From positions 1 through 41,340 of IMG/VR virus record IMGVR_UViG_3300044701_000737: a stretch of 41,340 nt of DNA. One strand, written 5' to 3'. Positions within the stretch are counted from its first letter, which is position 1. Each line of letters opens with the position of its first letter. Source of the DNA: a virus. Shown one piece after another: positions 6,170 to 41,340 of this stretch. The notes beneath the pieces were generated by a model. That model saw only the letters and a list, made by a program, of their open reading frames with translations. It was not told where the DNA came from and did no database searches. Made by a program: the position numbers and the translations under genes.

Positions 6170-6198
6170 TGTTTACTTTTCAGAAAGCATGGTACAAT
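6168..6198 (+). promoter_or_regulatory. Candidate rightward promoter with AGTGTTTACTTTT motif
   Basis: TTTACT (6172-6177) and TACAAT (6193-6198) lie in a 72-base gap after the MazG gene. The spacer is 15 bases, or 17 if TGTTTA is taken as the -35. The 13-base AGTGTTTACTTTT (6168-6180) is shared exactly with the leftward promoter region near 3010. It would drive the operon from 6242 through the polymerase genes. Confidence 0.5.
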
Positions 6199-6241
6199 GT
6201 TCTTGTTGTTTACTTACTACTAAATACTTAAAGGCTAAATT

Positions 6242-22585: not shown

Positions 22586-22588
22586 ACT

Positions 22589-25811: not shown

Positions 25812-25813
25812 TT

Positions 25814-26446
25814 TTAGCTTTCAATTGCAATAGCTTGACGATCACCAAGACGAAGTTGATCTTCCATCTTCAGAACTTGCATAGCTTGGTCATACTTTTG
25901 CTGGAATATTTGACGTTGATCATTCTTTAGAAATGGCATAGCTTGTAAGAGTGTACCAAAGAGCATGGCATTTGGCGCATTCTGTGTAATCCAGTTTGTC
26001 TGATTTGCAGAGTCAAGAGGCTGTAGTCTTTCATAGTACAGCACTTCAAAATCATAGTCTTGATTAGGAGTAGGCGATACTAACCAATGATCGTAATCAT
26101 AGTCTGCATAGTACAGAGGAATACCGGTAGCAGCATCTGCCGGTGAATAGTTCTTTAGATATTCATATTTTCTAAGATAGACAGGCTGATAAGAATTACC
26201 ATTGTCTATGTTCATCGAGACAGTTTTACGCCATCTAGCCGGCTTAGGAATAATAGGATTACCTGATAGCATAGTGCTAGTTACTACTTGCTGCTGACCT
26301 AAAGTTTTGATCTGCTGTGCAATCTCATATTCACACAGAGTAATGAAAGTAGGTATTTGATTGACAACTGCAGCATCATTTCTTTCTAAATACTGCTCGA
26401 CAGTAGTAATTAGATTGTCATAAGTCAGTACAAAAGAAGCAGTCAT
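25814..26446 (-). CDS. Head-to-tail adaptor (P22 gp4 / T7 gp11-like)
   Basis: 210 residues, the length of T7 gp11-type tail tube/adaptor proteins. The N-terminal helices (TTVEQYLERNDAAVVNQIPT, LCEYEIAQQIKTL) and the following strand region (KPARWRKTVSMNI, YLRKYEYLKNY, YYADYDYDHWLVSPTPNQDY) match the adaptor family, and the C-terminal helix NDQRQIFQQKYDQAM is also typical. It would bind the portal ring and the nozzle protein. It is the first structural gene after the lysis cassette, and the gap before it has a TATAAT on the minus strand. Confidence 0.8.
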   Translation of the reverse strand: MTASFVLTYDNLITTVEQYLERNDAAVVNQIPTFITLCEYEIAQQIKTLGQQQVVTSTMLSGNPIIPKPARWRKTVSMNIDNGNSYQPVYLRKYEYLKNYSPADAATGIPLYYADYDYDHWLVSPTPNQDYDFEVLYYERLQPLDSANQTNWITQNAPNAMLFGTLLQAMPFLKNDQRQIFQQKYDQAMQVLKMEDQLRLGDRQAIAIES

Positions 26447-26479
26447 CTTTGCACCCTATTCGCGGTAATCAATAAATTA

Positions 26480-26485
26480 ATTATA
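26480..26485 (-). promoter_or_regulatory. Possible -10 element in the lysis/adaptor gap
   Basis: A perfect TATAAT on the minus strand lies 34 bases upstream of the adaptor start, in a 42-base gap that is one of the largest in the late block. No convincing -35 is found 16-18 bases away (GTACTC at best). It could be a weak or activator-dependent internal promoter, or chance in an AT-rich gap. Confidence 0.25.
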
Positions 26486-26488
26486 CTC

Positions 26489-26944
26489 TTATGCATATGG
26501 GCGAGTACCTACTTTGTCAATGATCAGAGCTTGACGACGTGGGGGCGTGTCCTTAGTGTTTGAAACACTAATATGTGTCCATCCGCCGCCTTTATCTTTA
26601 TCCCAGAATTCACGGATGATCTGATCAAACTGAACATCTGATGCAATAATTGCTTTGCAGACTTCGTCTGGGTTCATACCTGGAACTCTAATATCTGCAG
26701 CACAACCGATTCTGTGTTGACTGCTATCCTTTGACCCTACGGCATCATTAACTGGCTTTGATCGATAGGCAGAATTAATCATGATCGGCTTCATATCTAA
26801 TGCTTTCTTGACTTCTTCTAGCATGCTTGCTAGTCTGACCAGATTTGCCAACTCAGTGGCATTTGGCGTATTATCAAACCCATGACGTGCTGCAGTCTCA
26901 CTGGCAGTCATTTCTTGTACTGTAAAGTGTTCACTTAGCTGCAT
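26489..26944 (-). CDS. Endolysin, M15-type peptidase
   Basis: 151 residues, a full M15 (VanY/M15_3-type) domain. Zinc residues are H77 and D84 in SQHRIGCAADIR and H124 in GWTHISV. E112 (IIREFW) is the likely catalytic glutamate. The N-terminus LSEHFTVQEMTAS is the usual start of these phage lysins. It would cut peptide cross-links of peptidoglycan at the end of infection. No signal peptide is present, so the holin encoded just upstream should release it. It overlaps the holin gene by 14 bases. Confidence 0.9.
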   Translation of the reverse strand: MQLSEHFTVQEMTASETAARHGFDNTPNATELANLVRLASMLEEVKKALDMKPIMINSAYRSKPVNDAVGSKDSSQHRIGCAADIRVPGMNPDEVCKAIIASDVQFDQIIREFWDKDKGGGWTHISVSNTKDTPPRRQALIIDKVGTRPYA

Positions 26945-27344
26945 CTTTTTCTTTCTTTTTCATGTCCATGATCTTCTCAAGGGTTCTGCCACCAAAGTAG
27001 AACGACATGATTAACATACCCCATTGACCTAATAATTCTACGTACTTCTCGTTGGCATTGTTACCAAAGGCGCTCATCATTGCAAATAAGAAATAGGCAA
27101 ACAAAATAAAGATCAGGGTCATTGGACGGATGTTTTTGGATAGCCATGAGTCCGAGTTCATGTCCGCTTCTTGGCGCTTGGTTAGCTCTTGAGCCTCAAT
27201 ATTGTCGGCATTCAGTTCTGCTAACCTGCCTTCTTGTTGCATCTTGAGCAACTCTTGCTGGGCTTTAGCCTTGGCTTCTGGGTCGGGAATGAACTTGTCT
27301 AGGACTTTCATCCCAACGTCTACTAGTGCTGTTAATGGAAACAT
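26931..27344 (-). CDS. Holin, GTA_holin_3TM-like
   Basis: 137 residues. The N-terminal part is amphipathic (LVDVGMKVLDKFIPDPEAKA) with a helical linker rich in Gln and Glu. Two clear hydrophobic segments follow (MTLIFILFAYFLFAMMSAFG, about residues 75-94; WGMLIMSFYFGG, about 107-118) with a Lys-rich tail (MKKKEKDAAK). This layout, including PDP...A near the N-terminus and W.SKN.RP before the first span, matches the gene-transfer-agent-type holins. It would permeabilise the inner membrane. It lies directly upstream of the endolysin, and its own start overlaps the upstream stop. Confidence 0.85.
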   Translation of the reverse strand: MFPLTALVDVGMKVLDKFIPDPEAKAKAQQELLKMQQEGRLAELNADNIEAQELTKRQEADMNSDSWLSKNIRPMTLIFILFAYFLFAMMSAFGNNANEKYVELLGQWGMLIMSFYFGGRTLEKIMDMKKKEKDAAK

Positions 27345-27697
27345 TATTTTCTCCCTACTTCAGTTTCGTTATCGCCTTTGCGAACAACTACTTTGTCACC
27401 TTCTACCGACACGGACATTGGGTCACGGTCAGCCATCTTATCTAGGCGGGAAATGAGTTCTTTCATAATCTCAAACTCAGGCTTGTCTTGTTTGGGGGTA
27501 GCCCCAGCGACACCGTTAAGCATTGAGATTAAGGCGGTTAAAGATGCACCAAGTAGCCCCATGACTGCGGCCATCTTAGATTCTTCCAGCACAATCGAGG
27601 CGCCCACCCCAATCACCACAATAAAGGTAATGTAAAAAAGACCTTGTTTGCCGATATATTTACCAGCAACTTCTTTAGCGGTTTCATGTTCATTCAT
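27344..27697 (-). CDS. Membrane protein of the lysis cassette, 117 aa
   Basis: Two predicted helices (LFYITFIVVIGVGASIVL, about residues 20-37; AAVMGLLGASLTALISML, about 43-60) are followed by a polar domain (KELISRLDKMADRDPMSVSV). The topology and adjacency to the holin suggest a second holin or antiholin; a structural role cannot be excluded. It overlaps both neighbours by 1-4 bases. GC content in a hand-counted 60-base segment (27481-27540) is 31/60, above the early genes. Confidence 0.65.
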   Translation of the reverse strand: MNEHETAKEVAGKYIGKQGLFYITFIVVIGVGASIVLEESKMAAVMGLLGASLTALISMLNGVAGATPKQDKPEFEIMKELISRLDKMADRDPMSVSVEGDKVVVRKGDNETEVGRK

Positions 27698-28146
27698 TTT
27701 TTAGACCCCCATACCATGTAATAAGCTATCCAGCCCGCTGCTAAAAAGCACCAGAACTGCACCCATCTAACCTTTGACAACTCGGCATCAAAGTACTTCT
27801 TATCTTCCTTCTCAAGCCGCTCAATCTCGGTCTTGATGTCTATTAGCTTCTGCCACTCTTTAGTGCCGTACTTCTTTACAAAATCTACCCTTAATTTGTA
27901 CTCCTCATCCGATATTTGTTTACGGTGTTTGTACTCTTCAAGGGCTTTAAATATTGCCCGTTCCTTCCTTAACTCTGCTTCCCTACGCTCACGGATTCTT
28001 GCGTTTGCCCGTTCTTTTGCTACATCAACTGCTTCTTTCTGTACTTCTTCAATGTTCTTGCCGATCTCACGACCAGCTTCCCTGCCTGTCTTAATCCCTT
28101 CGCTGATCCCCTTGGCACCAGCCGACAACCCCAGTTCGTCCGACAT
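27694..28146 (-). CDS. Coiled-coil protein with C-terminal membrane anchor, 150 aa
   Basis: Residues 35-120 form a long Glu/Lys/Arg-rich helix (KERANARIRERREAELRKER), followed by one hydrophobic span near the C-terminus (VQFWCFLAAGWIAYYMVW, about residues 128-145). The reversed topology (anchor at the C-terminus) differs from usual i-spanins, which are anchored at the N-terminus. It may be a spanin-like or antiholin-like lysis factor. It overlaps the next gene by four bases. Confidence 0.6.
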   Translation of the reverse strand: MSDELGLSAGAKGISEGIKTGREAGREIGKNIEEVQKEAVDVAKERANARIRERREAELRKERAIFKALEEYKHRKQISDEEYKLRVDFVKKYGTKEWQKLIDIKTEIERLEKEDKKYFDAELSKVRWVQFWCFLAAGWIAYYMVWGSKK

Positions 28147-28163
28147 ATCTCACTGTTCTTTGC

Positions 28164-28358
28164 CTATTTAAGAACTAGACTAATCAATAGCAAAACTATT
28201 GCCCCGGCAGAACTAATAAGAGTTGTCTCTAAACGCTTCAGTCGAGCGTTTACACCGCGCATTTCTTTTTCAATACTCTCATACCGAATAGCGCATATAT
28301 CAATATGACTGTCGATATCACTCTTAACTTGCTGTATCGTTAGCTTCTTGGTTACCAT
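28164..28358 (-). CDS. Small coiled-coil and tail-anchored membrane protein, 64 aa
   Basis: A charged helix (IDSHIDICAIRYESIEKEMR, about residues 15-34) is followed by a C-terminal hydrophobic segment SSAGAIVLLLISLVL (about 49-63). This is a shorter version of the topology of the preceding lysis-cassette proteins. AAAGGCG precedes the ATG, and it overlaps the upstream gene by 35 bases. A lysis-accessory role is likely from position; no family name is assigned. Confidence 0.6.
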   Translation of the reverse strand: MVTKKLTIQQVKSDIDSHIDICAIRYESIEKEMRGVNARLKRLETTLISSAGAIVLLLISLVLK

Positions 28359-28569
28359 TATTCGCCTTTGAATGCGCCAAAGACTCTTTAAGCATATTAA
28401 AAAAGGCTTGTTTACCTACTTGCAACTGATCTAAGTTAAATTTAGCCGAGTCAATTTTTCGGTCTAGATCAACGCAATGGTTCACAATTACCTGCTGCTC
28501 TTGAGTTAAGTCTTCGTACTGATATTGAACATTGTCAATAGTAACGGGGGTCTTTTCATTTTTTCCCAT
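28324..28569 (-). CDS. DUF6447-like phage protein, 81 aa
   Basis: The sequence VTIDNVQYQYEDLTQEQQVI and the following CVDLDRKIDSAKFNLDQLQV match a short helical phage family annotated DUF6447 (name from memory), often found between tail-fibre and lysis genes. It has no membrane span and no enzymatic motif. Its function is unknown. AAGGAG precedes the start, and its 3' end overlaps the 64-residue gene. Confidence 0.65.
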   Translation of the reverse strand: MGKNEKTPVTIDNVQYQYEDLTQEQQVIVNHCVDLDRKIDSAKFNLDQLQVGKQAFFNMLKESLAHSKANNGNQEANDTAS

Positions 28570-28581
28570 TTCATTCTCCTT

Positions 28582-28953
28582 TTAGTTAGAAACTATTTCT
28601 ACTTCTACCCATGAGGTTGTAGCCTCGTCCCACGAGTAGCGTTTGTCATCGTTTGGATAAGGTACTGGAGCTTCCCATAGATAAGAATCTTGGTTCATTG
28701 ACCAGCTTGGGAATGGTTGTGGGGCAGAAAACCCTGTTCCATCCCATGTATAACCGATACCAGCATAGTTTTTATGCAGTGGCTCACGACCACTAGGTGT
28801 GCCGTCTTGGTTATAGTGAACGCCACCACGGGTGTTATACGATGTCTGAACCCATGACGCTGGGTCTCCCAACGCACCAGTAGCGATAAAGGCTTCTTCA
28901 GCCACTACTACTTGGACTACAACACCGTTTTCTACTTTTGCAAAGTGTGCCAT
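28582..28953 (-). CDS. Fibre-accessory or virion-associated small protein, 123 aa
   Basis: Beta-rich, aromatic protein starting MAHFAKVENGVVVQVVVAEE. The body contains SYNTRGGVHYNQDGTPSG and YTWDGTGFSAPQPFPSW, the pattern of a small protein common in marine and freshwater phages (including T4-like cyanophages), where it lies near fibre genes. It may be a tail-fibre accessory or a decoration protein. It starts immediately after the previous gene's stop with no gap. Confidence 0.7.
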   Translation of the reverse strand: MAHFAKVENGVVVQVVVAEEAFIATGALGDPASWVQTSYNTRGGVHYNQDGTPSGREPLHKNYAGIGYTWDGTGFSAPQPFPSWSMNQDSYLWEAPVPYPNDDKRYSWDEATTSWVEVEIVSN

Positions 28954-29394
28954 TTAGATTACTCCGTTGTTTGGAAATGATAGGTTTAAAGCCATTAATT
29001 CTTCTACGCTGGTTACGGCAGAGATGGCTGCCTCTAACTCGCTTGCCTTTGCAACAACCGCGGCACGATACGCTACGGTGTCGGCTGGGATGTCTACATT
29101 GCGCTCGGTTTTGCGGATTACCATCCAATCGGTTTGGGATAGGATAGAGTTGGCTGTCCGCTTGACTTGTTCAATATGACCTGACTTTAGACCCTTGGCG
29201 ATTAGTCTTTGGGTTGTGTTAACCATAGACTTTGTTGCCTCGTCATAAACTTTTACATAAGCGGGGTTGCCGTCTTGGTCAACCTCCTCACGGTCTTCCA
29301 GTGCCTTGGGCATCTTTGAGAACGAGCCGTTCTCGTTTGCCGTTACCCAGTAGTAGCGGTCATCTGGTCTGATTTCGTCTTGTCTAATAAACAT
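28954..29394 (-). CDS. Possible tail-fibre assembly chaperone-like protein, 146 aa
   Basis: The C-terminal half has SILSQTDWMVIRKTERNVDI followed by AYRAAVVAKASELEAAIS. The DW..(I)R..E......A.YR pattern resembles the assembly-chaperone proteins encoded next to phage fibres. The N-terminal half (DDRYYWVTANENGSFSKMP) is beta-rich. It follows the giant fibre gene by 8 bases, as expected for a fibre chaperone. The call rests on pattern and position. Confidence 0.6.
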   Translation of the reverse strand: MFIRQDEIRPDDRYYWVTANENGSFSKMPKALEDREEVDQDGNPAYVKVYDEATKSMVNTTQRLIAKGLKSGHIEQVKRTANSILSQTDWMVIRKTERNVDIPADTVAYRAAVVAKASELEAAISAVTSVEELMALNLSFPNNGVI

Positions 29395-29402
29395 ATTAGT
29401 TC

Positions 29403-32400
29403 CTATCGTGCGTTAGCGTATTTAAAGGGGTTTTCGGCAAATGCCATGTAGATGTATGTGTTACTACCAGTATTTATTGTTGTATATGTTTCTCTTAATT
29501 TAAATCCGTTAGATAAAAAATCACATATAACTGTATTTAATTCTTGGTCAGGTTGACTGGGTTGTAAAAAATTACCAACAACATTATATGTTTGGGTTGA
29601 TGTATCCATCAAAATCCATGCGTCACTACCCGCACCTCTATGTTTTAATATTATAAATCTTGGTCTAAATCCTGTGTATACAAAAGTGCCATTTGTAGAA
29701 CCATTACCTAGGTATGAGCCAAATGCACTATAGCCAGCGACTTGTGCAAAGCAGTAAGCTACATAAGTTCCACCGCTTGCATTTAATAATGATGAATCTG
29801 CAGCGATAGTTAGTGTAGAACTTGATGGAGATATAAAGGTGCTACCATAATTTGCTTCACCAGTATTTACATCAAAAAACAAATAGTAAGAAGTGCTAGT
29901 CAATCCTGTGTGATAAGTTGCCCAATTAGCTGAAGCATTTCTGCGTTTAATTATTACCATGCTAGGTGCTGTTGCTATACCACCGACTTGACATCCATGC
30001 CCAACAGTTGTTGTTCCTGTACCGCCTGTGCCTGTATAAGTAACAATACTAAACCCAGCAGTTGTATTAGCACTTACTGTAGATGTAATAGCGCCTGCTG
30101 TGTTGGATACTGTTGAGCCTGAATTAGCGTTCCATGCCCACGCTACAAAGTTATAGGAAGAATTAGAAGCGTAAGAACTATTGAAAGGTATTGTTAGTCC
30201 TGTGCTACTGAATGTAGAAGATGGTGAAACTGCTGCATCAGGGTCAGGTTCATCTGTAAGCAAATACACACCGCCACCACGAACCGAATCTTGCACAAAA
30301 TTACTAAATGCCGCAGTCCTGTTTTTCATCCAAGCAAAATCAGGATAAAAGCCAGTTGTAATTACTGTTCCAGCACCTGCTCCAGCATAAGTTACAGCAT
30401 TAAAATACTTATTTGCTGTTGTTGCTGGTGTAGCACCAATTGCAGGAGTGGTTAAGTTAAATGTGTTTAGTGCTTTAAAGTCTGTTGGTGGGGTGTAGGC
30501 GAATGGTCTTTGACCGAAGTTGGCGTTAATTGTATTAGTTCCAGCAGAACAAAAATCTGCGTTGTATTCGCCAGCAACAATACTTTTAGCACCTTGAGAA
30601 ACATTGTTCTTATAAAATGTAATTTGATTAGTATCTAAATCAAGCGCTACTCCAATTACATCCCCACTACCAAATGTTGCCCCGTAGGAAACACTTGAAA
30701 TTCCAGTATAAAAATTTCCATTACCACCATAATAATGATAGCCTTGCGAAATTGAACTATTGCTTGGTGTTGCTGTTGATAAAATAATTCCTGGTGCAGC
30801 TAAATAGGAATCTTGAGTTTGCTCCCAATACCATTTACCACTTGATACAGCTATCGTATTTGGCTGTTCGCCACCATTTGCGTCCCAAACAACAGTTAAA
30901 TTACCATTGCTTATAGTTGAAGTTGATGGTTTTTTAAGTGGATTCAATACAGCATAATTAGCCGCAGTAGCACTTGTCAGCGTAGGCACATCGGTCATGA
31001 TGTCTAGGGTAGAACCAGCCAGTAAGCCGATGTTGTTGTTTGTCCAGTTGTTCCCATTGGGACTGTAGTCCTTGGACTGATTTGCCAGCATGGTAAATGG
31101 ATACGCTTGGCTAGTTGTTACCGAGTTAGTATTAGTAATGCTAAACGCATTTGTGCTGTTATCTACAATAGTAGCGTTTTGCAGTGTCAACAAGGATGTA
31201 CCACTAATCGCAGTTAAGTTTGCTGTTGGTGGGATAAAGTTGCTTGTGTAAACCGCAGTACCTTTAACAATGCGGACATTGCTCATTGCGCCAGCAAAAA
31301 CAAGCCCTGTTGAAGTTCCGTAGCCGTTAATTTGAACATTCTCTGTTGAAGAGTTAAGAGAAACACCAGTGACACTTACTGTTCCTTGCGAAACTCCATT
31401 TAAGTAACAAGAGAGATTGTTTCCATTGCGAACCGCTGCAACATGAAGCCATTGACCACTTGAAACTATTGTTGTGCCAACTACTTCATAGCCTGTACCG
31501 CCACTAGCCACAAGAATTCTTAAAAAGTTAGATGCGTTTCTTTCAAAGTAAAAACTACCACTAGAATTAAGACCTGAACTATTAATTTGACCAATAATAG
31601 CCGCACGACCAGAGGCATTAAAGTAAACCCACGACTCGATAGTAAAGTCACCACTGCCCATATTAAACGCTGCGTTTTGAGCAATCGTTAAATACTGGCT
31701 AGAGCCATTAAATGACCCGTAGAAAGATGAACTACCTGTAAACGGCAAATAAAATCCATTAGTACCATAGCTACCACCGTAGCGGATAGGTTGCCAGACA
31801 CCGAGTCCGTTAAATGTACCGAAGCTGTTTGGTGTTAGGGCTTGACCGTCAATAGAATTAACTTCAGCTAGTTCGCCATCAAAGTAACCAAATGCTGACC
31901 CAGCGGTGTTATAACTAACACCAACGCCAGTTGATGCAGACGCTTGATTAAATGAAATACCAGCGTTTTGTGATAAATTATTCGATGATGTACCAAATGA
32001 TGTTACCTGTGAACCATTTACATATAAAGCAAAACCTGTTGTAGAAGTTGTATTATCTACTGATACAACAATATGATACCAAGCCGCTGGGTCACGATAA
32101 ACCGCAGAAGTTTGATAATCTATATATGTCGAATTTACGTCATTAGAAATGTAAACACGGAAAGTGTCATTAGCCATAAAGTAAAGCTGAGTCACCCATT
32201 GCGAACTCTTGTAAGAGCCAGCTATTGCAGCGTTACTTCCTAATGTGCCTCGTTTCACCCATGCACTAAATGTCCACTTATTAGTAGAGCCAGAGACAGT
32301 TGGTGTGCGTGTCAGTGAAGCAGATGCGCTTGAACGGAAACGCAATGAGTTGGTTGTTAATACGATTGGGGTTAGGTATCCGCTTGATGTGAATGTGTGG

Positions 32401-34052
32401 ATTACATTACCGCCAGCTACAGTAACTGTACCGCCAGCCATTTGCTGAGTAGAGCCTGGGTAAGAGATGATTACTACACCGCTACCGCCAGAGCCAGAAA
32501 AATCTGGAAACGCTCCACCGCCACCACCGCCTCCGCCTCTGTTTGCTGAACCACTGCTTCCAATAACATTGTAATCAGCACCAGCGCCTCCTCCATCAGT
32601 AGCTGTTCCACCAGAGGTTGTATATCCACTACCACCACCTCCGCCAGCGTATCCAATAGAAGAACCAGTAATGGCAACAGTTACACCAGCGCCACCATTA
32701 CCACCAGTATTTTGTCCAGCAGTTCTACTTTGTCCTACTGCTCCAGCGCCACCACCGCCACCACCAGCATATCCATTTACGCCATCATATCCAGCACCTG
32801 TACCGCCAGCAAATCCTTGATTTGCAGTTCCGCTACCACCAGCCGCACCAGTTCCAGAATTAGAACCACCACCGCCACCAGAACCACCAGATGCTCCTGC
32901 TGTATTTATTAAACCAGAACGACCACCACCAGTAGATGTAATGGATAAAAATGCAGAGTTGCTACCAGAATTTGCTTGTGACACAGTATATTGAGCGCCT
33001 ACACCGCCAGCACCAACAGTAACTAAATAAATGGAGTTTGTGTCAATGGTTAATGTGGACTCTAAACTACCGCCACCACCAGTATTGGTGACTGATGACC
33101 TTAAACCACCAGCTCCACCACCGCCACCATATGCACCACCGCCACCACCGCCACCAGCAACAACTAAGAAGTTTGCTGTCAACGAGGACAATGGGCTAAG
33201 AGTGCCAGATGTAGTAAATGTATGAATTGTGTTGCCACCGCTTGAGGTAACGACACCGCCACCGAATTGTTGTGCGCCTACATAGGAGATGATGACTACG
33301 CCTGAGCCACCTTGACCGCCATCTCTTGTTCCATTTTGACCACCACCGCCACCGCCACCGCCTGTGTTTGCAGTTCCATTCAATCCTACAGTTGATGAAG
33401 AACCACCACCACCATCTGTAGCAGTTCCACCAGTTCCTAATACATTTGAATAACCACCAGCACCACCACCAGCACGACCAGTTGCAGTTCCATTTATTGA
33501 CGAAGAAACACCAGCACCGCCATTTCCAATAGTTCCTGACGAGCCAGCGCCACCTACTGCACCAGCGCCACCGCCTCCTCCTGGTCTATCTCCAGCCGAA
33601 GAAGAACCGCCAGCAAAACCTTGATTTGCATTTCCAGTTCCACCAGTAGTGTTACCACCAGCACCGCCACCTGAACCGCCATTGTTTGCTGGATTACCAG
33701 TATTGCTTCCTCCACCACCGCCACCTGTAGAAGTTATTGTGGAAAAAACTGAATTTGTGCCATTAACTCCATTGGCAGTATTGTCTACCGCACCTGCGCC
33801 ACCAGCACCAACAGTTACTGTGTAGCTATCTGTTAAAGATAAATTTAATTTTCCTTCTGCTGATGCGCCACCACCTGATGATTCTCCTGTAACCGAACAT
33901 CTATAACCACCAGCACCGCCACCACCAGCTACATCATTACCGCCACCTCCACCACCAGCAATTACAAGGAAGTCAACAGTAACGGCAGCCGCACCCGTTG
34001 TCCATCCGAAGGCTGCTAGGGCTGCTGCACCAATTTTAGATAAGCGTGGCAT
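29403..34052 (-). CDS. Giant tail fibre/adhesin: duplicated Gly-rich modules, LamG and SPRY domains
   Basis: 1549 residues. A signal-like start (SKIGAAALAAFGWTTGAAAV) is followed by two copies of a Gly-rich module (about 27-285 and 293-565), each opening FLV(I/V)AGGGGGG and closing GNxIHTFTxSGxL. Then come two LamG/concanavalin-like domains (about 567-760, with KWTFSAWVKRGTLGSNAAI; about 790-980, with GSGDFTIESWVYFNASG). A SPRY-like domain (about 1060-1220, GKWYWEQ and ITFYKNN) and a C-terminal DUF7483-like region complete it. LamG and SPRY domains often bind sugars or proteins, so receptor binding is likely. The N-terminus may be recognised by other virion proteins rather than secreted. It is the longest gene in the window. 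Confidence 0.85.
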   Translation of the reverse strand: MPRLSKIGAAALAAFGWTTGAAAVTVDFLVIAGGGGGGNDVAGGGGAGGYRCSVTGESSGGGASAEGKLNLSLTDSYTVTVGAGGAGAVDNTANGVNGTNSVFSTITSTGGGGGGSNTGNPANNGGSGGGAGGNTTGGTGNANQGFAGGSSSAGDRPGGGGGAGAVGGAGSSGTIGNGGAGVSSSINGTATGRAGGGAGGYSNVLGTGGTATDGGGGSSSTVGLNGTANTGGGGGGGGQNGTRDGGQGGSGVVIISYVGAQQFGGGVVTSSGGNTIHTFTTSGTLSPLSSLTANFLVVAGGGGGGGAYGGGGGAGGLRSSVTNTGGGGSLESTLTIDTNSIYLVTVGAGGVGAQYTVSQANSGSNSAFLSITSTGGGRSGLINTAGASGGSGGGGGSNSGTGAAGGSGTANQGFAGGTGAGYDGVNGYAGGGGGGAGAVGQSRTAGQNTGGNGGAGVTVAITGSSIGYAGGGGGSGYTTSGGTATDGGGAGADYNVIGSSGSANRGGGGGGGGAFPDFSGSGGSGVVIISYPGSTQQMAGGTVTVAGGNVIHTFTSSGYLTPIVLTTNSLRFRSSASASLTRTPTVSGSTNKWTFSAWVKRGTLGSNAAIAGSYKSSQWVTQLYFMANDTFRVYISNDVNSTYIDYQTSAVYRDPAAWYHIVVSVDNTTSTTGFALYVNGSQVTSFGTSSNNLSQNAGISFNQASASTGVGVSYNTAGSAFGYFDGELAEVNSIDGQALTPNSFGTFNGLGVWQPIRYGGSYGTNGFYLPFTGSSSFYGSFNGSSQYLTIAQNAAFNMGSGDFTIESWVYFNASGRAAIIGQINSSGLNSSGSFYFERNASNFLRILVASGGTGYEVVGTTIVSSGQWLHVAAVRNGNNLSCYLNGVSQGTVSVTGVSLNSSTENVQINGYGTSTGLVFAGAMSNVRIVKGTAVYTSNFIPPTANLTAISGTSLLTLQNATIVDNSTNAFSITNTNSVTTSQAYPFTMLANQSKDYSPNGNNWTNNNIGLLAGSTLDIMTDVPTLTSATAANYAVLNPLKKPSTSTISNGNLTVVWDANGGEQPNTIAVSSGKWYWEQTQDSYLAAPGIILSTATPSNSSISQGYHYYGGNGNFYTGISSVSYGATFGSGDVIGVALDLDTNQITFYKNNVSQGAKSIVAGEYNADFCSAGTNTINANFGQRPFAYTPPTDFKALNTFNLTTPAIGATPATTANKYFNAVTYAGAGAGTVITTGFYPDFAWMKNRTAAFSNFVQDSVRGGGVYLLTDEPDPDAAVSPSSTFSSTGLTIPFNSSYASNSSYNFVAWAWNANSGSTVSNTAGAITSTVSANTTAGFSIVTYTGTGGTGTTTVGHGCQVGGIATAPSMVIIKRRNASANWATYHTGLTSTSYYLFFDVNTGEANYGSTFISPSSSTLTIAADSSLLNASGGTYVAYCFAQVAGYSAFGSYLGNGSTNGTFVYTGFRPRFIILKHRGAGSDAWILMDTSTQTYNVVGNFLQPSQPDQELNTVICDFLSNGFKLRETYTTINTGSNTYIYMAFAENPFKYANAR

Positions 34053-34063
34053 CTATAAAACCT

Positions 34064-34888
34064 TTAAGCAAATTTAGTTTGTGATGCGAGTACTGTAAAT
34101 GTAGCACTTCCTGTTTTGATGATGACATAAGTGTAGCTGTCAATTGAGTTTACGTTACCAGTAGTAGGTGCTGTTCCACCTTGCCATTTAGGTGTTACAG
34201 AAGAGCCATCAACCTGAACTGCGGAGTTGTAGTATGCGGTCGATCCGTTAGTAACTAAGAAAGTAACAGACAAAGACTCACCAGTAGACATAATGTCATT
34301 TAAAGCAGTTCCGCTAGAGCCTCTAAAATTGACTGTCCAGCTTCCTGACGCAGCGGTTGTGTAGTACAGGACTGACTGGGTCGTAACATCGTAAGGAATA
34401 GTGCCTGTTGCTGCCGTAGCTGAAACAGTAGCGGTCTCAAGAATATTGGAGGTTTTTAAGTCTGCATTAGAAGACGTACCAGCGAAGGTCTGTAGGGCTG
34501 TAAATGTGGTTGCTGTGCCAGGTGCTACATAGTCTGTACCTGCGGTAGCTGCTGTAAATGCAGAAGTGCCGTTACCTTTTAAGACACCAGTTAGAGTAGC
34601 TGCACCAGAACCACCGTTTGCAACGTTTAACGTGCCGGCTAATGTAACGGCGCCGCTTGTTGCAGAGTTAGGGGTAAAGCCTGTAGTTCCAGCGGAGAAG
34701 GTCGTTACTGGGGACGCTGTAGAACTTTGAGCTAATAATGTAACAACGCCAGAACTGTTTTCAAAGTACAGTTTACCATCAGCAATATTAATTGCTAATT
34801 CACCAGGAACCAGATCTGCAGCAATCGGCACAACAGAAGCCGTAGTGCTGTAATATAGCGATATGGGTGTATAGCCTGCTTGTGCCAT
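34064..34888 (-). CDS. Tail fibre-type protein, 274 aa
   Basis: The N-terminal phrase DLVPGELAINIADGKLYFEN (residues about 21-40) is a standard element at the start of many phage fibre proteins. The rest is Thr/Ser/Ala-rich beta structure (TLNVANGGSGAATLTGVLKG is another common fibre motif), and the C-terminus DSYTYVIIKTGSATFTVLAS looks like a compact tip domain. It probably joins the large fibres at 34926 and 29403 in the host-attachment apparatus. AAAGGA precedes the ATG. Confidence 0.8.
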   Translation of the reverse strand: MAQAGYTPISLYYSTTASVVPIAADLVPGELAINIADGKLYFENSSGVVTLLAQSSTASPVTTFSAGTTGFTPNSATSGAVTLAGTLNVANGGSGAATLTGVLKGNGTSAFTAATAGTDYVAPGTATTFTALQTFAGTSSNADLKTSNILETATVSATAATGTIPYDVTTQSVLYYTTAASGSWTVNFRGSSGTALNDIMSTGESLSVTFLVTNGSTAYYNSAVQVDGSSVTPKWQGGTAPTTGNVNSIDSYTYVIIKTGSATFTVLASQTKFA

Positions 34889-34908
34889 AATTAAAATCCT
34901 TTTACAAA

Positions 34909-34914
34909 ATTATA
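34909..34914 (-). promoter_or_regulatory. Possible -10 element before the 274-aa fibre gene
   Basis: TATAAT on the minus strand sits 21 bases before the fibre start in a 37-base gap. A GTTTAC lies upstream of it, but too close to serve as -35, and no good -35 is found at 16-18 bases. It could reset expression of the fibre genes, or be chance. Confidence 0.25.
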
Positions 34915-34925
34915 AGCCGTAAACA

Positions 34926-37484
34926 TTAAAAAGTGCCTCCGGCAACGCCATAAATTGTGCCTGTGCCACCATTAGCGATAGGCAGTATACCTGAAACTTG
35001 AGTCGTAAGATCAATAGTGCCACTGAGCGCTGAAGTCGGATAACCTGTACAATTAGTTAAAGTACCTGAAGATGGTGTTCCAAGAACTGGCGTAACTAGT
35101 GTTGGCGAAGTTGCAAATACTAATGCGCCTGACCCTGTCTCATCTGTTACAGCAGCTGCTAAGTTTGAAGAGCTTGGTGTTGCTAAGAATGTAGCTACAC
35201 CAGTGCCTAATCCTGTAATAGACCCAACAGCCGGGGTGACTGTTGTATTTCCAGCCAAAGTGAGTTGGCCTTGCGCATTAACCGTAAACGTACCAACTTG
35301 AGTCGAAGAGCCATACGCACCAGCGGCAACCGCAGTGTTGCTGATGCTGAACTGCGTGCCTGTTAGGGTTAAGCCAGTGCCAGCAGAGTAGATTTGCGTT
35401 GCAGAGATTTGGACAAACGTAATATTGGTTGTGCCAAATACGATGACGCCAGAAGTGTTGCAGGTGTAAGTCTCGCCCGCGCCAGTTGTGCCTTGCTGGA
35501 CAAAGAAAGTTGAACCCTCGCCCAGCGTTGTTGGGCTAACAAGTCCGTAAGTATCAGTGTCGGTCGAACGAGTCAGAATCCAGTTTGTCGAGCCAGAACC
35601 CACGTCTGTCACGACGTACACACCATTTTGAATTTGGTTTGTTTGCGCGTAAATCAACACGCGGTCGTTGACCGAAAGGGTGACGCCATCAATCACCAAA
35701 GCGGCTTGCGTGCCTGCGTTGGTCAGAGTTGCCCCAACACCGACTCCAGCCCCGCCCGGTTGGTTGTAGGTTGCATTCAGCGGAGTTGGAGACTCAACAC
35801 GAACTGGCGTATGGAAGTGAATACCAGAAGACACCAAGGTATCCACATACTGTTTGGTTGCTAAGTCAAGCGCCGCAACTGGGTTTTGGGTCACCGTCAC
35901 GCTGGTCAATCCAGCAGGGGTCAGTGACGTGCCACCCAAGGCAATAGTGGTCGTTCCCAAAACAATCGTACTGTTGGTCAACGATGAGTTGGCGATGTTT
36001 GACAACGTGTTATTAGCACCGTCAATTGTCTTGTTAGTAAGTGTCTGTGAGCCGGTTAGTGTAGCTACTGTGCTATCAATAGCAATCGTAACTGGTGTCG
36101 AGCCATTGTAGCTTGTACCGGATAACCCAGTCCCTATAGTCAAAGCATTAGATGCTGTAGCTGTTACTGTAATTGACCCGCCTAAGCTAACACTAGAACC
36201 GTTAATAGTAATAGCACTGTTTGTTAGTGAAGCATTATCAATATTGCTTAAAGTATTAGTAGAACCACTAATAGAAACACCAGCTAAAGTGGTAATCGTT
36301 CCACCTAAAGAAACAGATGTTGAGCCAATCGTAATTGCACTATTTGTCAATGAAGCATTAGCAATATTACTTAAAGTGTTAGTAGACCCGCTAATTGTCT
36401 TATTAGTTAATGTCTGTGTACCAGTCAATGTAACAACAGTGTTATCAATTGATATCGTACCTGTTGAAGTAATTGGACCACCTGTTAACCCTGTGCCTGT
36501 AGCAACTGATGTTACACCTGAACCGGCTGCAAATGATGTCCAAGAAGCTACTGAATAACCTTCAAATAACCCTGTATCTGTATTATAGCGAATCATTCCA
36601 GAAGCTGGAGAAGCTGTTCTATCCGCAGTTCCGCCTTTTGGAAGAACCATTGCCGATAAACCTGGAATAATAGGATTGCTAACAATACTAATTACAGGAG
36701 TAGTTGCACCATTTGCAACAGCAATTTGATTTGCAGTACCTGACACAAAAGTAACAGAACCATCACCTAGACCAAAGTTTTGCCAGCCTGCAGTAGCATA
36801 ACCTTCATATCGATCTGTTGTACTGTTATATCGAATATCGCCAACTACAGGTAGTACAGGGCGATCTCCTGTTGCGCCTGAAGGAATTTGAACAGATTCA
36901 ATACCAGGAAGTACAGGATTGTTAGCAATACTAAATGTTGGATTGCTCCCACCATTTGGGTTGGCAATATCAATTTGATCACTTGTTCCTGTTAGTGTAA
37001 CATTCTGGAAAAATGAACCGCCCACTAAGCTAACCATGCCGCTACCAGTTAATGTGGCAACAGATAAAGCTAATCCTGTTAAAGATATTGTTGGATCACC
37101 ACTAACTCCTGATCCATTAGCAATACTTAATCCGGCAGTCCCAATTGCAATTGATCTATTAGTAACAGTATTAACACCTGTTTTAGCGATGATACCTGCA
37201 GAAGCATTTTCTAAACTAGCAGAAGTGCCGTTTAGAAAGAAGCTATATAACCCTTGAGCGCCGCCGTCTGAAGTACCAATGCCTAATCCACCACCGATAA
37301 ATCGACTATTTGGTAGTGATGCTTGTGCACCGACAGTTAAGAATGTTTGTGTCTGTACTGGACTATTAGTAATTGCACTAACAGTAGTCTGTACTGTTTG
37401 CCCATTTTGCACAACAGGAATAAGTTCAGTGCCTGTAATTGCACTAGGGGCTGCAGGTAATTGTGAAATTCGTATATTTGCCAT
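34926..37484 (-). CDS. Large tail fibre with internal repeats, 852 aa
   Basis: The start ANIRISQLPAAPSAITGTEL is typical of a fibre family found in podoviruses of aquatic bacteria, with P..A..GTELIPVVQNG as virion-anchor signature. The body contains repeated NTLSNI(A/D)N(A/S)SLTNS units, each with a SLGG strand (three copies, DNA about 35930-36410), and QTLTNKTI elements. The C-terminus LPIANGGTGTIYGVAGGTF matches the usual GGTG tail. A stretch near 35400-35950 has much higher GC than the repeats, suggesting a swapped segment. It is a major host-attachment fibre candidate. Confidence 0.85.
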   Translation of the reverse strand: MANIRISQLPAAPSAITGTELIPVVQNGQTVQTTVSAITNSPVQTQTFLTVGAQASLPNSRFIGGGLGIGTSDGGAQGLYSFFLNGTSASLENASAGIIAKTGVNTVTNRSIAIGTAGLSIANGSGVSGDPTISLTGLALSVATLTGSGMVSLVGGSFFQNVTLTGTSDQIDIANPNGGSNPTFSIANNPVLPGIESVQIPSGATGDRPVLPVVGDIRYNSTTDRYEGYATAGWQNFGLGDGSVTFVSGTANQIAVANGATTPVISIVSNPIIPGLSAMVLPKGGTADRTASPASGMIRYNTDTGLFEGYSVASWTSFAAGSGVTSVATGTGLTGGPITSTGTISIDNTVVTLTGTQTLTNKTISGSTNTLSNIANASLTNSAITIGSTSVSLGGTITTLAGVSISGSTNTLSNIDNASLTNSAITINGSSVSLGGSITVTATASNALTIGTGLSGTSYNGSTPVTIAIDSTVATLTGSQTLTNKTIDGANNTLSNIANSSLTNSTIVLGTTTIALGGTSLTPAGLTSVTVTQNPVAALDLATKQYVDTLVSSGIHFHTPVRVESPTPLNATYNQPGGAGVGVGATLTNAGTQAALVIDGVTLSVNDRVLIYAQTNQIQNGVYVVTDVGSGSTNWILTRSTDTDTYGLVSPTTLGEGSTFFVQQGTTGAGETYTCNTSGVIVFGTTNITFVQISATQIYSAGTGLTLTGTQFSISNTAVAAGAYGSSTQVGTFTVNAQGQLTLAGNTTVTPAVGSITGLGTGVATFLATPSSSNLAAAVTDETGSGALVFATSPTLVTPVLGTPSSGTLTNCTGYPTSALSGTIDLTTQVSGILPIANGGTGTIYGVAGGTF
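35930..36410 (-). repeat. Three diverged repeats inside the 852-aa fibre gene
   Basis: Three translated units of about 45-70 residues share NTLSNI(A/D)N(A/S)SLTNS and a following SLGG or ALGG strand. The first two are close copies (adjacent) and the third is more diverged and preceded by TLTNKTI. Boundaries are approximate. Such repeats can change fibre length by recombination. Confidence 0.6.
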
Positions 37485-37485
37485 A

Positions 37486-37857
37486 TTAGGGGCTCAAATT
37501 ATCCAAGTTTCCGTCAAGATCGTCTTGTGCTGTTTCAGGCGCAATACCTGCTTCACCTGCTGTTGTACCAGTAACAGTTTGGTTCGGGTCTTGCACAACA
37601 TTCGGATCAGTTGTAATTGCATCTTGATTTTCAGCAACATCAGCATCAGGCCTCGGAAAACGTATTGATATTTTTTCTGGCTGTCTTGCCGGCAACCGAT
37701 AAGGATCTCGTTCATCATTGCAACCAAAGTTGCAAACTCTTAAACCGGATAAATTTCTATCTGTCCCTATTTCATCATAGGCACGTTTCATTTTACACCG
37801 ATCACAGATAGCGATCGATAAAACTGTATTCCCTCTAGTGTCTAACCATATGCTCAT
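37486..37857 (-). CDS. Structural protein with zinc-type CxxC...CxxxC motif, 123 aa
   Basis: Four cysteines are placed as C18-x-x-C21 and C42-x-x-x-C46 (ICDRCKMKRAY, LRVCNFGCNDERDPYRLPAR), likely binding one zinc. The phrase DPYRLPARQPEKISIRFPRP is characteristic of a small protein adjoining the adaptor and fibre genes in many podovirus-like genomes. The C-terminus is acidic and disordered. It may stabilise the tail-head joint or chaperone assembly; the exact role is unknown. It sits between the 352-residue adaptor and the big fibre. Confidence 0.75.
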   Translation of the reverse strand: MSIWLDTRGNTVLSIAICDRCKMKRAYDEIGTDRNLSGLRVCNFGCNDERDPYRLPARQPEKISIRFPRPDADVAENQDAITTDPNVVQDPNQTVTGTTAGEAGIAPETAQDDLDGNLDNLSP

Positions 37858-38912
37858 TTTGTGTATGGAGAAATGTTAGGCGCAAAGTAGATAGGCGACT
37901 TATCACGCTCTTCTTGCTCTGCTTGGTTCCAGTACTTCTCCCCTTGCTGCTCGCAGTACAGAATACGATCATTTGCAACATTGGGGAGTTCCATAGCCAT
38001 TTGATGAGCCAACATATTCTGAATGGCTAGATACCATCTCTGAGGTATCTCAATCTCGCCACTCAGCGCCCCGACGTCTTGAATTTGTCGATGACACCAC
38101 GCCACAATTTGCGGCTGAATTGTATTAGGGACTGGCCATAAGTACATAGCCGGCTGCGGAATGTTCCGATCAAACCAGTACTGAAGCGGCCGATTATTTG
38201 TAAAGTTTTTGTTAGGTAAGTTTGTATAGTCATCTCGATTTAACCTCGCAAGTGGTATTTCTATAGGTGCTGTGCCAAACACAACTTGATAAACGCCCAT
38301 ATTGGCACCGGCAGTTTGTAGTATTCTCCAAAATGGAGCAGTTGCAGATGGGTCTAAATCATAATAAATCCATGTTCCGGATTCCCAAGTGGTTGCTCCT
38401 GGGCTATAAACTGTGGTCCAAGTTGACCCGTCTTGTGAATACTGAAGCTGTACAGTTACAGAACCGCTAATTGCTGGCAAAATACCAATGGTTGCAACAT
38501 ACACAGGGTTGCCAGAACCATTATTAATGCCAATATATCCAGTATTATTAGATAGCTGACAGATGCTACTGCCGACCCCGTCAAAGGCATTCGATACAAC
38601 CCCTGAGGAGCTATTAGCCCCTGTAGTGACAGAAGTAACAGTTCTGTAGTTCGAATTAAGAACATCAACAGTACCGATTGGCAGATAGTAAATGTACTGA
38701 TCAGGCTTCATGCCGATCACATTCTTCACAATACACCAGTACTGAATGCCTCGATTGGCTAGATTTGACAGTAGATAGTACAGACTGGTCTTAGCAGATT
38801 GTACTTGTTCAACCGTTAGCTCTTCTGCAAGTTTACCTGCTCTTCTTGCACCATGGTCAATAAGAGTTTGAACTGATATAACGGTTTGCCCTACAGTTCC
38901 TGAAGTTGACAT
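37854..38912 (-). CDS. Adaptor-type virion protein with inserted discoidin-like domain, 352 aa
   Basis: The N- and C-terminal parts (QTLIDHGARRAGKLAEELT; YWFDRNIPQPAMYLWPVPNT; RWYLAIQNMLAHQMAMELP) resemble a family seen near head-tail adaptors, with the helix-strand pattern of gp4/gp11-like proteins. Residues about 98-213 interrupt it with a beta-rich segment (NAFDG, YSQDGSTWTTVY, FWRILQTA) resembling an F5/8 type C (discoidin) sugar-binding domain. The insertion could face outwards and bind glycans. It overlaps the zinc-motif gene by four bases. The inserted-domain call is by motif only. Confidence 0.65.
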   Translation of the reverse strand: MSTSGTVGQTVISVQTLIDHGARRAGKLAEELTVEQVQSAKTSLYYLLSNLANRGIQYWCIVKNVIGMKPDQYIYYLPIGTVDVLNSNYRTVTSVTTGANSSSGVVSNAFDGVGSSICQLSNNTGYIGINNGSGNPVYVATIGILPAISGSVTVQLQYSQDGSTWTTVYSPGATTWESGTWIYYDLDPSATAPFWRILQTAGANMGVYQVVFGTAPIEIPLARLNRDDYTNLPNKNFTNNRPLQYWFDRNIPQPAMYLWPVPNTIQPQIVAWCHRQIQDVGALSGEIEIPQRWYLAIQNMLAHQMAMELPNVANDRILYCEQQGEKYWNQAEQEERDKSPIYFAPNISPYTK

Positions 38913-38915
38913 AGA

Positions 38916-39452
38916 TTACCAGCCTGAACAATTCCATTTTTTCAATGATGCTTTAGCTCTAGGCGCATCACCTTTAGCATTCTTCACCACACCTGACATT
39001 CTAGCGCAAAAAGACTTCTTTCTACCTTCATCAGCCTTGGACTTAGGGTTTGGAGCAGGCGCTTTAAGATTGCTGCCTGTCATACGATTAACTTTGTCTC
39101 GGCCCTTCTTTGTTAGCCCAGCACCTTGGTCTGTAGGATACTTTTCGCCTTTAGTGATGGATAACTTAACATCTCCACCTTCTTTCTTACCTGCAGCAGC
39201 TCTAAAGTCAGCAGCAGTAGGCGCCCCTTTACTACCGGGTTTACGCATTTTTTCGCCTGAACCATGCTTAATTCGTTCTTGCTTGGCATGAATGTTATCC
39301 CATAAGCCGACTTTACCGCCTGATTTCTTAGGAGCGGCTCGTTTGGTTTCATAAGCAATCGCAACAGCTTGTTTAACAGGCTTACCAGCACGAACTTCTG
39401 CTGAGACGTTTTTACCGAACGCTTCTTTCGATTTGCTTTTGATCAATGGCAT
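38916..39452 (-). CDS. Lys-rich basic protein (DUF6496-like)
   Basis: 178 residues, strongly basic. The N-terminus IKSKSKEAFGKNVSAEVRAG and KQAVAIAYETKRAAPKK match the DUF6496 element (name from memory) found in phages and mobile DNA. The C-terminal part KKGRDKVNRMTGSNLKAPAP, then KKSFCARMSGVV, is another recurrent phage element. It probably binds DNA, either inside the capsid or during packaging. Function is not established. It lies two bases from the adaptor gene, in the head-proximal part of the operon. Confidence 0.7.
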   Translation of the reverse strand: MPLIKSKSKEAFGKNVSAEVRAGKPVKQAVAIAYETKRAAPKKSGGKVGLWDNIHAKQERIKHGSGEKMRKPGSKGAPTAADFRAAAGKKEGGDVKLSITKGEKYPTDQGAGLTKKGRDKVNRMTGSNLKAPAPNPKSKADEGRKKSFCARMSGVVKNAKGDAPRAKASLKKWNCSGW

Positions 39453-39453
39453 T

Positions 39454-40233
39454 TTATGGACCTGTTTTTACCAAAACCAAGATGAACATTGAAGAAACCG
39501 CGTTGTTGCTGGAACTGCCAATAGCTGTTGCCTCAATCGTGGTCTTTTCAGGAACTTCCAGCGGATACTCGAACACATAATCCGCTACACCATTATTGAT
39601 AGACGTAATTGCTGCGGTCATTCGAATGTTGTTTGTTCCTCTAGTTAGCAATCTGCCTTGAACTTGATTTGAACCGCCTGATTGACCACTTGAGAATAAA
39701 CCTTGAGAAACATAACCCGTATATCCAGCTGGGATTGTATAGCTTCCTGTAATAGTGGTATTGTAATCAAATTTAATAATGTCGTATGTGGTTGCTGGAA
39801 CACCTGCAGTTACAGTGCCTGTACCAATATAAATATCACCTGCTGAACCATTACCTGAACCTGCGGTTGCAACATAAGCGTAATTGACACGCAACAAAGA
39901 CGCAGTCATAGTAACAGCAGTCTGACCATTCAAAGTAACTGTTTCTGTAACTTCGTTATAATTCGCGTCGAGACCTTGAATAACGACAGTACGAGCTCCT
40001 GTACCTGAACTTGTATCATTAGCGCTTGTCGAACTAACAGTCATCTGAAGCGCAGCAGCAGGGAAAGTAATCAAACTTGACAATGGCCATACAGACACTT
40101 GCGCTGTATCTACGTCAGGATTGAAACCAAAAACAGTAACATTCCTGTGTCCCTGAATTTGACCCCTAGAAACTTGAAGCTCAAACGGCTCATATGCACC
40201 ACCACGAGTTACGGACGATATTGTTGTTGCCAT
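39454..40233 (-). CDS. Putative virion/head structural protein, 259 aa
   Basis: All-beta protein with AYEPFELQVSRGQIQGHRN at the N-terminus and VTETVTLNGQTAVT, TITGSYTIPAGYTGYVSQG and EYPLEVPEKTTIEATAIGSS later. The layout resembles structural proteins encoded near the capsid genes of aquatic podoviruses; no exact family is recalled. It has no enzymatic motif. It could be a head fibre, decoration or tail protein. A strong hairpin separates it from the upstream basic-protein gene. Confidence 0.7.
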   Translation of the reverse strand: MATTISSVTRGGAYEPFELQVSRGQIQGHRNVTVFGFNPDVDTAQVSVWPLSSLITFPAAALQMTVSSTSANDTSSGTGARTVVIQGLDANYNEVTETVTLNGQTAVTMTASLLRVNYAYVATAGSGNGSAGDIYIGTGTVTAGVPATTYDIIKFDYNTTITGSYTIPAGYTGYVSQGLFSSGQSGGSNQVQGRLLTRGTNNIRMTAAITSINNGVADYVFEYPLEVPEKTTIEATAIGSSSNNAVSSMFILVLVKTGP

Positions 40234-40248
40234 AATTTATCCTCAATT

Positions 40249-40275
40249 AAAAGGTGGGAGCCGAAGCTCCCGACC
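40249..40275 (-). terminator. Terminator-like hairpin between late genes
   Basis: Read leftward: GGTCGGGAGC, TTCG loop, GCTCCCACC, then TTTT. The 6-bp core stem is 40256-40261 with 40266-40271. The stem extends by three pairs past a one-base bulge. The short T run suggests partial termination, lowering expression of genes downstream relative to the head-proximal genes. Confidence 0.6.
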
Positions 40276-40278
40276 AAT

Positions 40279-40884
40279 TTAGCACTTCTGCATCTTCTTC
40301 ATAGTAGTATAGCCGCCTTCAGCTTTACAAGACATAGCAGCATGACCACCGTTTTTATAGCCTGCAGGTTCTTGTTTAATACCTTTGGTTTTACCTTGAA
40401 CAGTTGGCATCTTCTCTCCACTAGACATATTAGAGATAAACTTAGCTGCACCACCGTTTTTGTAGCCTTTGCCTTCTACGCCACCGGTCTTGGTGTTAAA
40501 AGACTTGGTTTGCTTAGCACTAGAAATATTGTTAAGAAATTTCTTAGCAGAACCACCATTTTTGTAGCCAGGGCCTTCAATCTTGCCTGTCCCTTTTTTC
40601 ATTACAGGACGAGTAGCTTCAATGCCACCTGCTAACCCACCTATAACATTAGGACCAGCTTTAGGCGCAGACATACCGCCACTACGAAGCTTTAAAGTAG
40701 TACCTTTACCACCTTTATGCTCTTGAGCATCATGCTGCTTCATGGCTTTTTTGATCATAGCCTTGTCTTGCGCCATATCAGATTTGCCACCTTCAGCCAT
40801 TTTTACACGACCGCCTTTTTTCAACTTAAGCTCAACTGATGGCTCAGTTGTCTTCATCTTAGGCATTGGTTTGTATTGTCCCAT
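40279..40884 (-). CDS. Lys/Gly-rich basic protein with GYKNGG repeats
   Basis: 201 residues, very basic and low in hydrophobic content. Three GYKNGG units (GPGYKNGGSAKKF, GKGYKNGGAAKF, PAGYKNGGHAAM) recur in the C-terminal half, with KKGGRVKMAEGGK near the N-terminus. Cys occurs only at the end. This looks like a DNA-condensing internal protein rather than an enzyme. It lies between the first late gene and the 259-residue gene. AGGAG precedes the ATG. The function is inferred from charge. Confidence 0.65.
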   Translation of the reverse strand: MGQYKPMPKMKTTEPSVELKLKKGGRVKMAEGGKSDMAQDKAMIKKAMKQHDAQEHKGGKGTTLKLRSGGMSAPKAGPNVIGGLAGGIEATRPVMKKGTGKIEGPGYKNGGSAKKFLNNISSAKQTKSFNTKTGGVEGKGYKNGGAAKFISNMSSGEKMPTVQGKTKGIKQEPAGYKNGGHAAMSCKAEGGYTTMKKMQKC

Positions 40885-40896
40885 TTTGCTCTCCTA

Positions 40897-41340
40897 TTAG
40901 GCTTGAGTTACACCGAGTGCACCAACACGAGTAGCGTTTGGTCCAACTGCGATTGCAGGTAAAAGAATTCCCATCACAAGACGCTTAATGCCGTCAGTTG
41001 CGGCAGAAGGAACGTAAGTACCACGTACATCACCAGTAGTCGTTGTAGCGGTGGCAGTTGCAGCAGCTACAAATGTTCCAGCATCTTCAGCTAGAGTATT
41101 GTTATAACCTGCACGAGCAATATAACCAGCATCAGTAACACGAACTGGAATACCAAGAATATCAGTAGTTCCAATGGTGATAGCAACTACAGTTCCACCT
41201 GAAACAGTAATTTCACTAATCTGATAGAATGCTTTTTTACCGTTTACAGCAGTAGAAGCAGATCCACTAGATGCGATTACTTCACTCATTGCTTGACCAT
41301 AGTAATCATAGCCAGAAACAGTAAAGTTACGAGTAGTTGG
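40897..41340 (-). CDS. Virion structural protein, N-terminus cut by the right edge
   Basis: 147 residues are visible and the frame stays open to 41340, so the gene very likely starts outside the window; an internal ATG at 41289 would give 130 residues. The upstream in-frame sequence RNFTVSGYDYYGQAMSEVIA is a phrase common in virion proteins of aquatic phages, favouring a longer protein. The rest is Ala/Thr/Val-rich beta structure (GGTVVAITIGTTDILGIPVR). The product is likely a head or decoration protein. The capsid genes would then lie further right. Confidence 0.7.
   Translation of the reverse strand, partial: PTTRNFTVSGYDYYGQAMSEVIASSGSASTAVNGKKAFYQISEITVSGGTVVAITIGTTDILGIPVRVTDAGYIARAGYNNTLAEDAGTFVAAATATATTTTGDVRGTYVPSAATDGIKRLVMGILLPAIAVGPNATRVGALGVTQA

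Follow-up and report, generated by a model that had tools for sequence, protein, structure and literature searches.

A mosaic tail fibre gene with an internal domain of probable foreign origin in an uncultured phage

The fibre gene and its internal domain

The window analysed here is the whole 41,340-nucleotide stretch of IMG/VR record IMGVR_UViG_3300044701_000737, which has a G+C content of 42.3%. The parts of its gene P0001 that are discussed below are listed in Table 1. A Pfam search of P0001 gave no match at an E value of ≤1. Beside this gene, at 37854-38912, lies a tail adaptor gene whose product is 54% identical to that of MW202545 and 41% identical to those of the Caulobacter phages RW, GB2A, RLK, and KcrB. 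Gene order is the same in MW202545, in which the counterpart of P0001 is annotated as a tail fibre. Based on this homology and on its position next to the tail adaptor, P0001 is a tail fibre gene. A second large gene, at 29403-34052, encodes a 1549-residue protein with Gly_rich_2, Laminin_G_3, SPRY, and DUF7483 domains and a glycine-rich part with a strong strand skew; it is probably another adhesin-like virion protein.

Table 1. Features of the fibre gene, in window coordinates
Feature	Position	Strand	Basis
Tail fibre gene P0001, 852 aa	34926..37484	minus	ORF and tail-fibre annotation of the syntenic MW202545 gene
N-terminal part, codons 1-200	36885..37484	minus	closest among listed loci is L017, 81.5% aa
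GC3-rich segment, codons 448-754	35223..36143	minus	maximum-likelihood edges
Stretch 85% DNA-identical to L087	35180..36071	minus	blastn
Left linker, codons 506-542	35859..35969	minus	97% DNA to L087; 93-94% to L123, L126, L135
Compact domain core, residues 562-691	35412..35801	minus	pLDDT >90 in each 10-residue block (model of 35250-35951)
Right linker, codons 700-745	35250..35387	minus	similar in most tabulated fibres, often 80-96% (residues 701-745)
C-terminal part, codons 746-852	34929..35249	minus	97% aa to L017

The internal domain is predicted to fold compactly. Its AlphaFold2 model, made with 83 sequences (the alignment took 82 of 98 non-redundant loci), consists mainly of strands and has a mean pLDDT of 82. 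In comparisons of the model with the PDB, none of 77 Foldseek matches reached an E value of ≤0.001, and the best VIA-align match had a Z score of 4.2, which is no clear fold match. By profile, the domain matches 'orf22' of PDB entry 9efk (E value of 8e-38), which carries it in another fibre context. Entry 9efk is absent among the matches listed by both fold searches, the literature searched contained no paper that mentions 9EFK, and a literature search on orf22 and podovirus fibres gave nothing linkable. Tail fibre gp58 of Roseobacter phage CRP-603 also carries the domain (63% identity over residues 528 to 714); its fibre context differs, and just 22% of P0001 is covered.

All 83 aligned domain members match phrog_30390, 81 match phrog_2647, and 62 match phrog_11518. 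The labels of the latter two ('head decoration' and 'tail fiber protein', respectively) conflict, although the domain matches both, and the match of the window's own domain to phrog_2647 (E value of 1.6e-17; residues 86 to 263 of 336) is not evidence of a location in the head. Among predicted viral proteins (BFVD) there are 93 structural matches to the domain model at an E value of ≤0.001; the 50 of these that are listed include proteins named as collagen repeats, chaperone auto-processing, Stf repeats, cyanophage fibres, and giant-virus proteins. As a fibre building block, the domain is widely exchanged and is found in many fibre architectures. The giant-virus matches (Indivirus, Marseillevirus LCMAC201, Mimivirus LCMiAC01, Fadolivirus, and Pithovirus LCPAC401, some of them named tail fibre) represent either a shared domain or mis-assigned metagenome contigs.

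Base composition in this and related fibre genes

A first-pass annotation of the DNA had described a sharp GC jump inside the fibre gene, with 42 G or C bases out of 60 at 35701-35760 and 19 out of 60 at 36241-36300. Both counts are exact, and both stretches lie inside the ORF. A likelihood scan of G+C at third codon positions (GC3) gives 0.515 for the best high-GC3 segment and 0.178 for the rest of the gene. The log-likelihood gain of this segment is 52.0, compared with a maximum of 16.5 in 200 permutations within amino acids and 11.3 in 200 permutations of codon order. The two-unit support interval is codons 445 to 492 for its start and codons 720 to 760 for its end, so that the segment is longer than the 35380-36000 given in the annotation. 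In 40-codon windows, GC3 is 0.05 to 0.33 within codons 1 to 480, 0.35 to 0.63 from codon 461 to codon 760, and 0.20 to 0.25 from codon 741 to codon 840. The word "sharp" slightly overstates a jump that is otherwise real, since on the N-terminal side overlapping windows climb through 0.15, 0.28, 0.33, 0.43, and 0.55.

Codons 495 to 700 have a G+C content of 0.519, compared with 0.428 expected if the same amino acids were encoded as in the other large genes of the window (z of 8.4), while codons 1 to 494 have 0.404 compared with 0.436 expected. The GC jump sits at synonymous positions: sliding GC3 and codon use confirm it beyond what amino acid content gives, and the segment has a foreign composition at its synonymous sites. 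The structural genes of the window have a mean GC3 of 0.286 (614 windows). The description of AT-rich repeats on both flanks was half right; on the N-terminal side, diverged TLTNKTI...NTLSNIANASLTN copies can be seen by eye in the translation. A self-blastn of the gene found no DNA repeat at an E value of 1e-4.

For comparison we used loci on other contigs (L-numbers), which had been found by scans with the whole fibre protein or with its domain. The two scans of viral contigs contributed 80 of 575 and 80 of 341 confirmed loci, respectively. Omission of L002, L086, and identical proteins reduced 155 ORFs to 136 distinct proteins, 134 of which have the domain; 2 loci with too little remaining gene were dropped, leaving 132 listed fibre genes. 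Across these, GC3 of the domain tracks GC3 of the remainder of the gene (r = 0.90; 0.89 with the window added), and domain minus remainder has a mean of 0.028 and a standard deviation of 0.067. The usual state, then, is that the domain agrees with its phage's own composition. The window's excess of +0.335 is larger than that of any of the 132, the next being L067 (+0.256) and L095 (+0.231). Four pairs of loci have identical domain DNA; for the 128 of 132 that are distinct, the mean is 0.027, the standard deviation is 0.067, and the largest value without the window is 0.256. The domain protein does not require GC-rich codons, because L103 and L089 encode domains that are 88% and 91% identical to the window's with GC3 values of 0.333 and 0.387 (remainder, 0.203 and 0.254).

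L067 provides a second candidate case of recent domain import. Its fibre gene (match at 5001-6872) has a GC3 of 0.496 in the domain and 0.24 in the rest. This domain is 94 to 97% identical at the amino acid level to those of L004, L018, L021, L029, and L031, whose N-terminal parts are just 50 to 53% identical.

Relatives of the separate parts

The gene was compared by blastn with 159 of 163 loci, the window's own copies (L001, L002, L082, and L086) having been taken out. The best match among the loci listed is L087, with 85% DNA identity over gene positions 1414 to 2305. L087 lies on a contig of 54 kb with a G+C content of about 50% (50.2% in its 8.6-kb locus), and this record has nine further matches to window positions 22500-41340, which are 65 to 80% identical and up to about 550 bases long. 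Its fibre has a GC3 of 0.33 to 0.68 over the whole length and is 94.7% identical to the window's at the amino acid level in codons 541 to 690, while DNA identity per 30 codons is about 22 to 61% in codons 1 to 210 and 301 to 480, where these align. L017 has the opposite profile, with DNA identities per 30 codons of 57 to 80% in codons 1 to 210, 28 to 50% in codons 541 to 690, and 76 to 92% in codons 721 to 852. At the amino acid level it is 88% identical over residues 1 to 100 and 40% identical over residues 521 to 700. GC3 of the L017 fibre is mostly 0.15 to 0.42, without an island at the domain.

Other loci give the same picture. Five loci (L003, L006, L036, L037, and L045) are 82 to 87% identical in residues 521 to 700 and have N-terminal parts that are ≤57% identical or unmatched. 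Conversely, six of the seven listed loci with an N-terminal part at least 77% identical carry a domain with <55% identity to that of the window, the exception being L015 (65% over 119 domain residues). By DNA, matches to named phages are limited to 4 records that cover at most 15% of the segment, and a pattern-based scan of cellular genomes for the domain found one weak relative (L166; 39% over 79 residues).

Trees were made from the 48 loci that have all three parts, less 13 that had long branches in quick trees, giving 35 loci plus the window. In the domain tree (codons 541 to 690) the window groups with L087 (99/97), and in the C-terminal tree it groups with L017 (100/98). In the N-terminal tree its nearest rows are L017, L030, and L033; a grouping of the window with L017 alone is not the best tree there and costs 4.6 log units (p-AU of 0.08). 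With treekit, forcing the window together with L087 was rejected for the N-terminal part (p-AU of 5.7e-33) and for the C-terminal part (p-AU of 1.8e-49; the C-terminal topology was tested with treekit only). Forcing the window together with L017 in the domain gave a deficit of 179 log units in treekit and yet a p-AU of 0.167, whereas IQ-TREE run directly on the same 36 rows gave a p-AU of 3.9e-65 with KH, SH, and RELL values of zero. We prefer the IQ-TREE result because a deficit of this size was never overcome in its 10,000 resamples. Among the 729 sites that are informative for the window, L087, and L017, those inside codons 346 to 718 favour L087 by 300 to 52, and those outside favour L017 by 296 to 81; the triplet score is 116, compared with a maximum of 29.7 in 2,000 permutations. 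Trees and triplet test agree that the parts of this gene have conflicting phylogenies. The uniform phylogeny that the first-pass annotation had set against import was looked for and not found, and its proposal of a fibre segment imported from another phage is supported by trees, identity scans, and composition.

Estimates of the edges differ by tens of codons (448 to 754 by GC3, 346 to 718 by the triplet test, and from about 506 by near-identity with L087). Near-identity with L087 starts at codon 506, and the left edge probably lies closer to that point. Among the 80 listed loci, residues 481 to 520 and 701 to 745 stay alike whatever domain stands between them, and L123, L126, and L135 have domains that are just 69 to 70% identical to the window's despite the likeness of their left linkers. 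A universal conserved DNA element at codons 506 to 542 was considered and rejected: among domains of at least 60% identity, identical residues share the same codon in 36% of cases there, compared with 40 to 48% in three other stretches.

Within codons 506 to 718, the third base differs between the window and L087 in 45 of 205 identical residues, which indicates that L087 is a cousin of the donor rather than the direct donor. These changes number 20 in each direction plus 5 others, and with this 20-to-20 balance no AT-ward adjustment since the split from L087 is seen. Most of these differences probably date from before the import, when the sequence was at high GC.

Across 103 listed fibres, identity to the window in the N-terminal part and in the domain is uncorrelated (rho = -0.06), while the positive controls in the same analysis give 0.85 (domain halves) and 0.47 (N-terminal halves). 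For loci from the whole-protein scan alone, the halves give 0.34 (domain) and 0.27 (N-terminal part) and the N-terminal part against the domain gives -0.10, 0.08, and 0.03; for loci from the domain scan alone, the controls are 0.74 and 0.84, compared with 0.06, 0.12, and 0.23. We see an even chance that these fibres form a family with an internal cassette site, in which a compact domain stands between linkers that are alike across contigs of 38 to 58% GC and entire domains assort with almost no restriction, the two ends staying native. The variation would then lie in the shaft, unlike the usual swap of the tip, and leftover composition would reveal single recent swaps (the window, L067, and perhaps L095). 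The claim of free assortment is weakened because loci were picked, 80 per scan, for resembling either the whole fibre protein of the window or its domain.

Origin of the domain and comparison with known exchanges

Based on the composition, the switch of nearest relative, and the differing domain in most fibres that share the N-terminal part, we consider it very probable that this tail fibre is a mosaic, with N- and C-terminal parts of an AT-rich, L017-type lineage and an internal domain that derives from an L087-related phage of higher GC content. The exchanged piece, about 200 residues together with the linkers, would have taken the place of the resident counterpart so recently that its codons keep the GC3 of their source, and the transfer would have been into the window's lineage. 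A double homologous crossover during co-infection may have taken place in the linkers common to many fibres (about codons 450 to 540 and 700 to 760), as is suggested by edges that lie in or near such common stretches. The domain would be a displayed part of the fibre whose exchange changes what the fibre touches; a role in receptor binding is conjecture.

There is a small probability that one or both flanks were instead replaced around a resident GC-richer domain, or that several successive exchanges took place in a third phage. Such a history would suit the wide reassortment of fibres in this family, the fact that L087 did not itself donate the domain, and codons 361 to 505, which fit neither L087 nor L017 well. 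However, low GC3 is common to the flanks and the window's other structural genes, which makes the domain the odd part, and a single exchange inside the gene is the simpler account. An intermediate donor would also fit with import of the domain.

That the high GC results, without any transfer, from amino acid content or from a constraint (codon-related or functional) acting on the domain is less probable still. The domain is indeed non-repeat sequence, of another kind than its N-terminal flank, and in many phage genomes GC3 changes along the sequence for no single reason (PMC2266997). Against this stand the within-amino-acid permutations, the low-GC3 versions of the domain in L103 and L089, the correlation across the 132 listed fibres, and a tree conflict that is independent of composition at this level.

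Equally improbable is an assembly artefact that joined two phages of one sample: the window is a metagenomic contig and both parents occur as contigs of the same collection, but L002, a contig from another dataset that may come from the same population and so may not be a fully independent check, is 100% identical to window positions 34053-41340 (7,288 bases, the whole fibre gene included), the shift in composition takes tens of codons, and the DNA of the domain is 15% different from that of L087, so that L087 itself was not stitched in.

Mosaicism of fibre genes is familiar from older work on P2 and T-even fibres. Import of the domain also has parallels in other studies. Tailspikes of E. coli phages are likewise modular, with domains swapped across genera (Pas et al. 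2023, PMC10408124), and in these phages recombination has been proposed to take place at conserved DNA motifs that flank the receptor-binding domains. There, a C-terminal receptor-binding domain with a known target moves, while in the window an internal domain moves and both ends stay. Alteromonas phages (PMC10579305) resemble the window in that fibre and host-recognition modules are horizontally common to distant phages, but those modules are whole genes or gene sets and not part of one gene. In metaviromic islands of marine phages (PMC3909814), as here, co-occurring aquatic phages differ more in parts of their fibres than elsewhere; that work used read recruitment and found the C-terminal part most variable, whereas composition and trees point to an internal part in the window. 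Mosaicism inside fibre genes is thus of a known kind (PMC10408124, PMC10579305), of which the window is a clean new case that departs from it modestly, in that the exchanged part is internal and both ends are kept.

The case leaves knowledge of phage mosaicism unchanged. It offers a well-controlled recent intragenic swap in an uncultured phage for which representatives of both parental lineages are available, and it suggests that GC3 of a domain relative to the rest of its gene, with homologous genes as controls, is a practical marker of recent fibre swaps. Such a marker flags places where attachment may have changed lately.

GC3 similar to that of the fibre segment also occurs elsewhere in the window (60-codon windows), at 26931-27344, 27694-28146, and 28954-29394 and in the left-end genes at 3-2657. 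The first three are small genes in which GC3 reaches 0.57 to 0.62 amid AT3-rich structural genes. The gene at 26931-27344 matches GTA_holin_3TM, and its neighbour at 26489-26944 matches Peptidase M15. No DNA match to window positions 26447-27800 was found in the L017 contig, and for this reason a putative lysis cassette there may be a second exchanged region. The left-end genes (primase-like with DUF5906/DUF3854, and DUF932) have a GC3 of 0.47 to 0.48, which is well over that of the structural genes.
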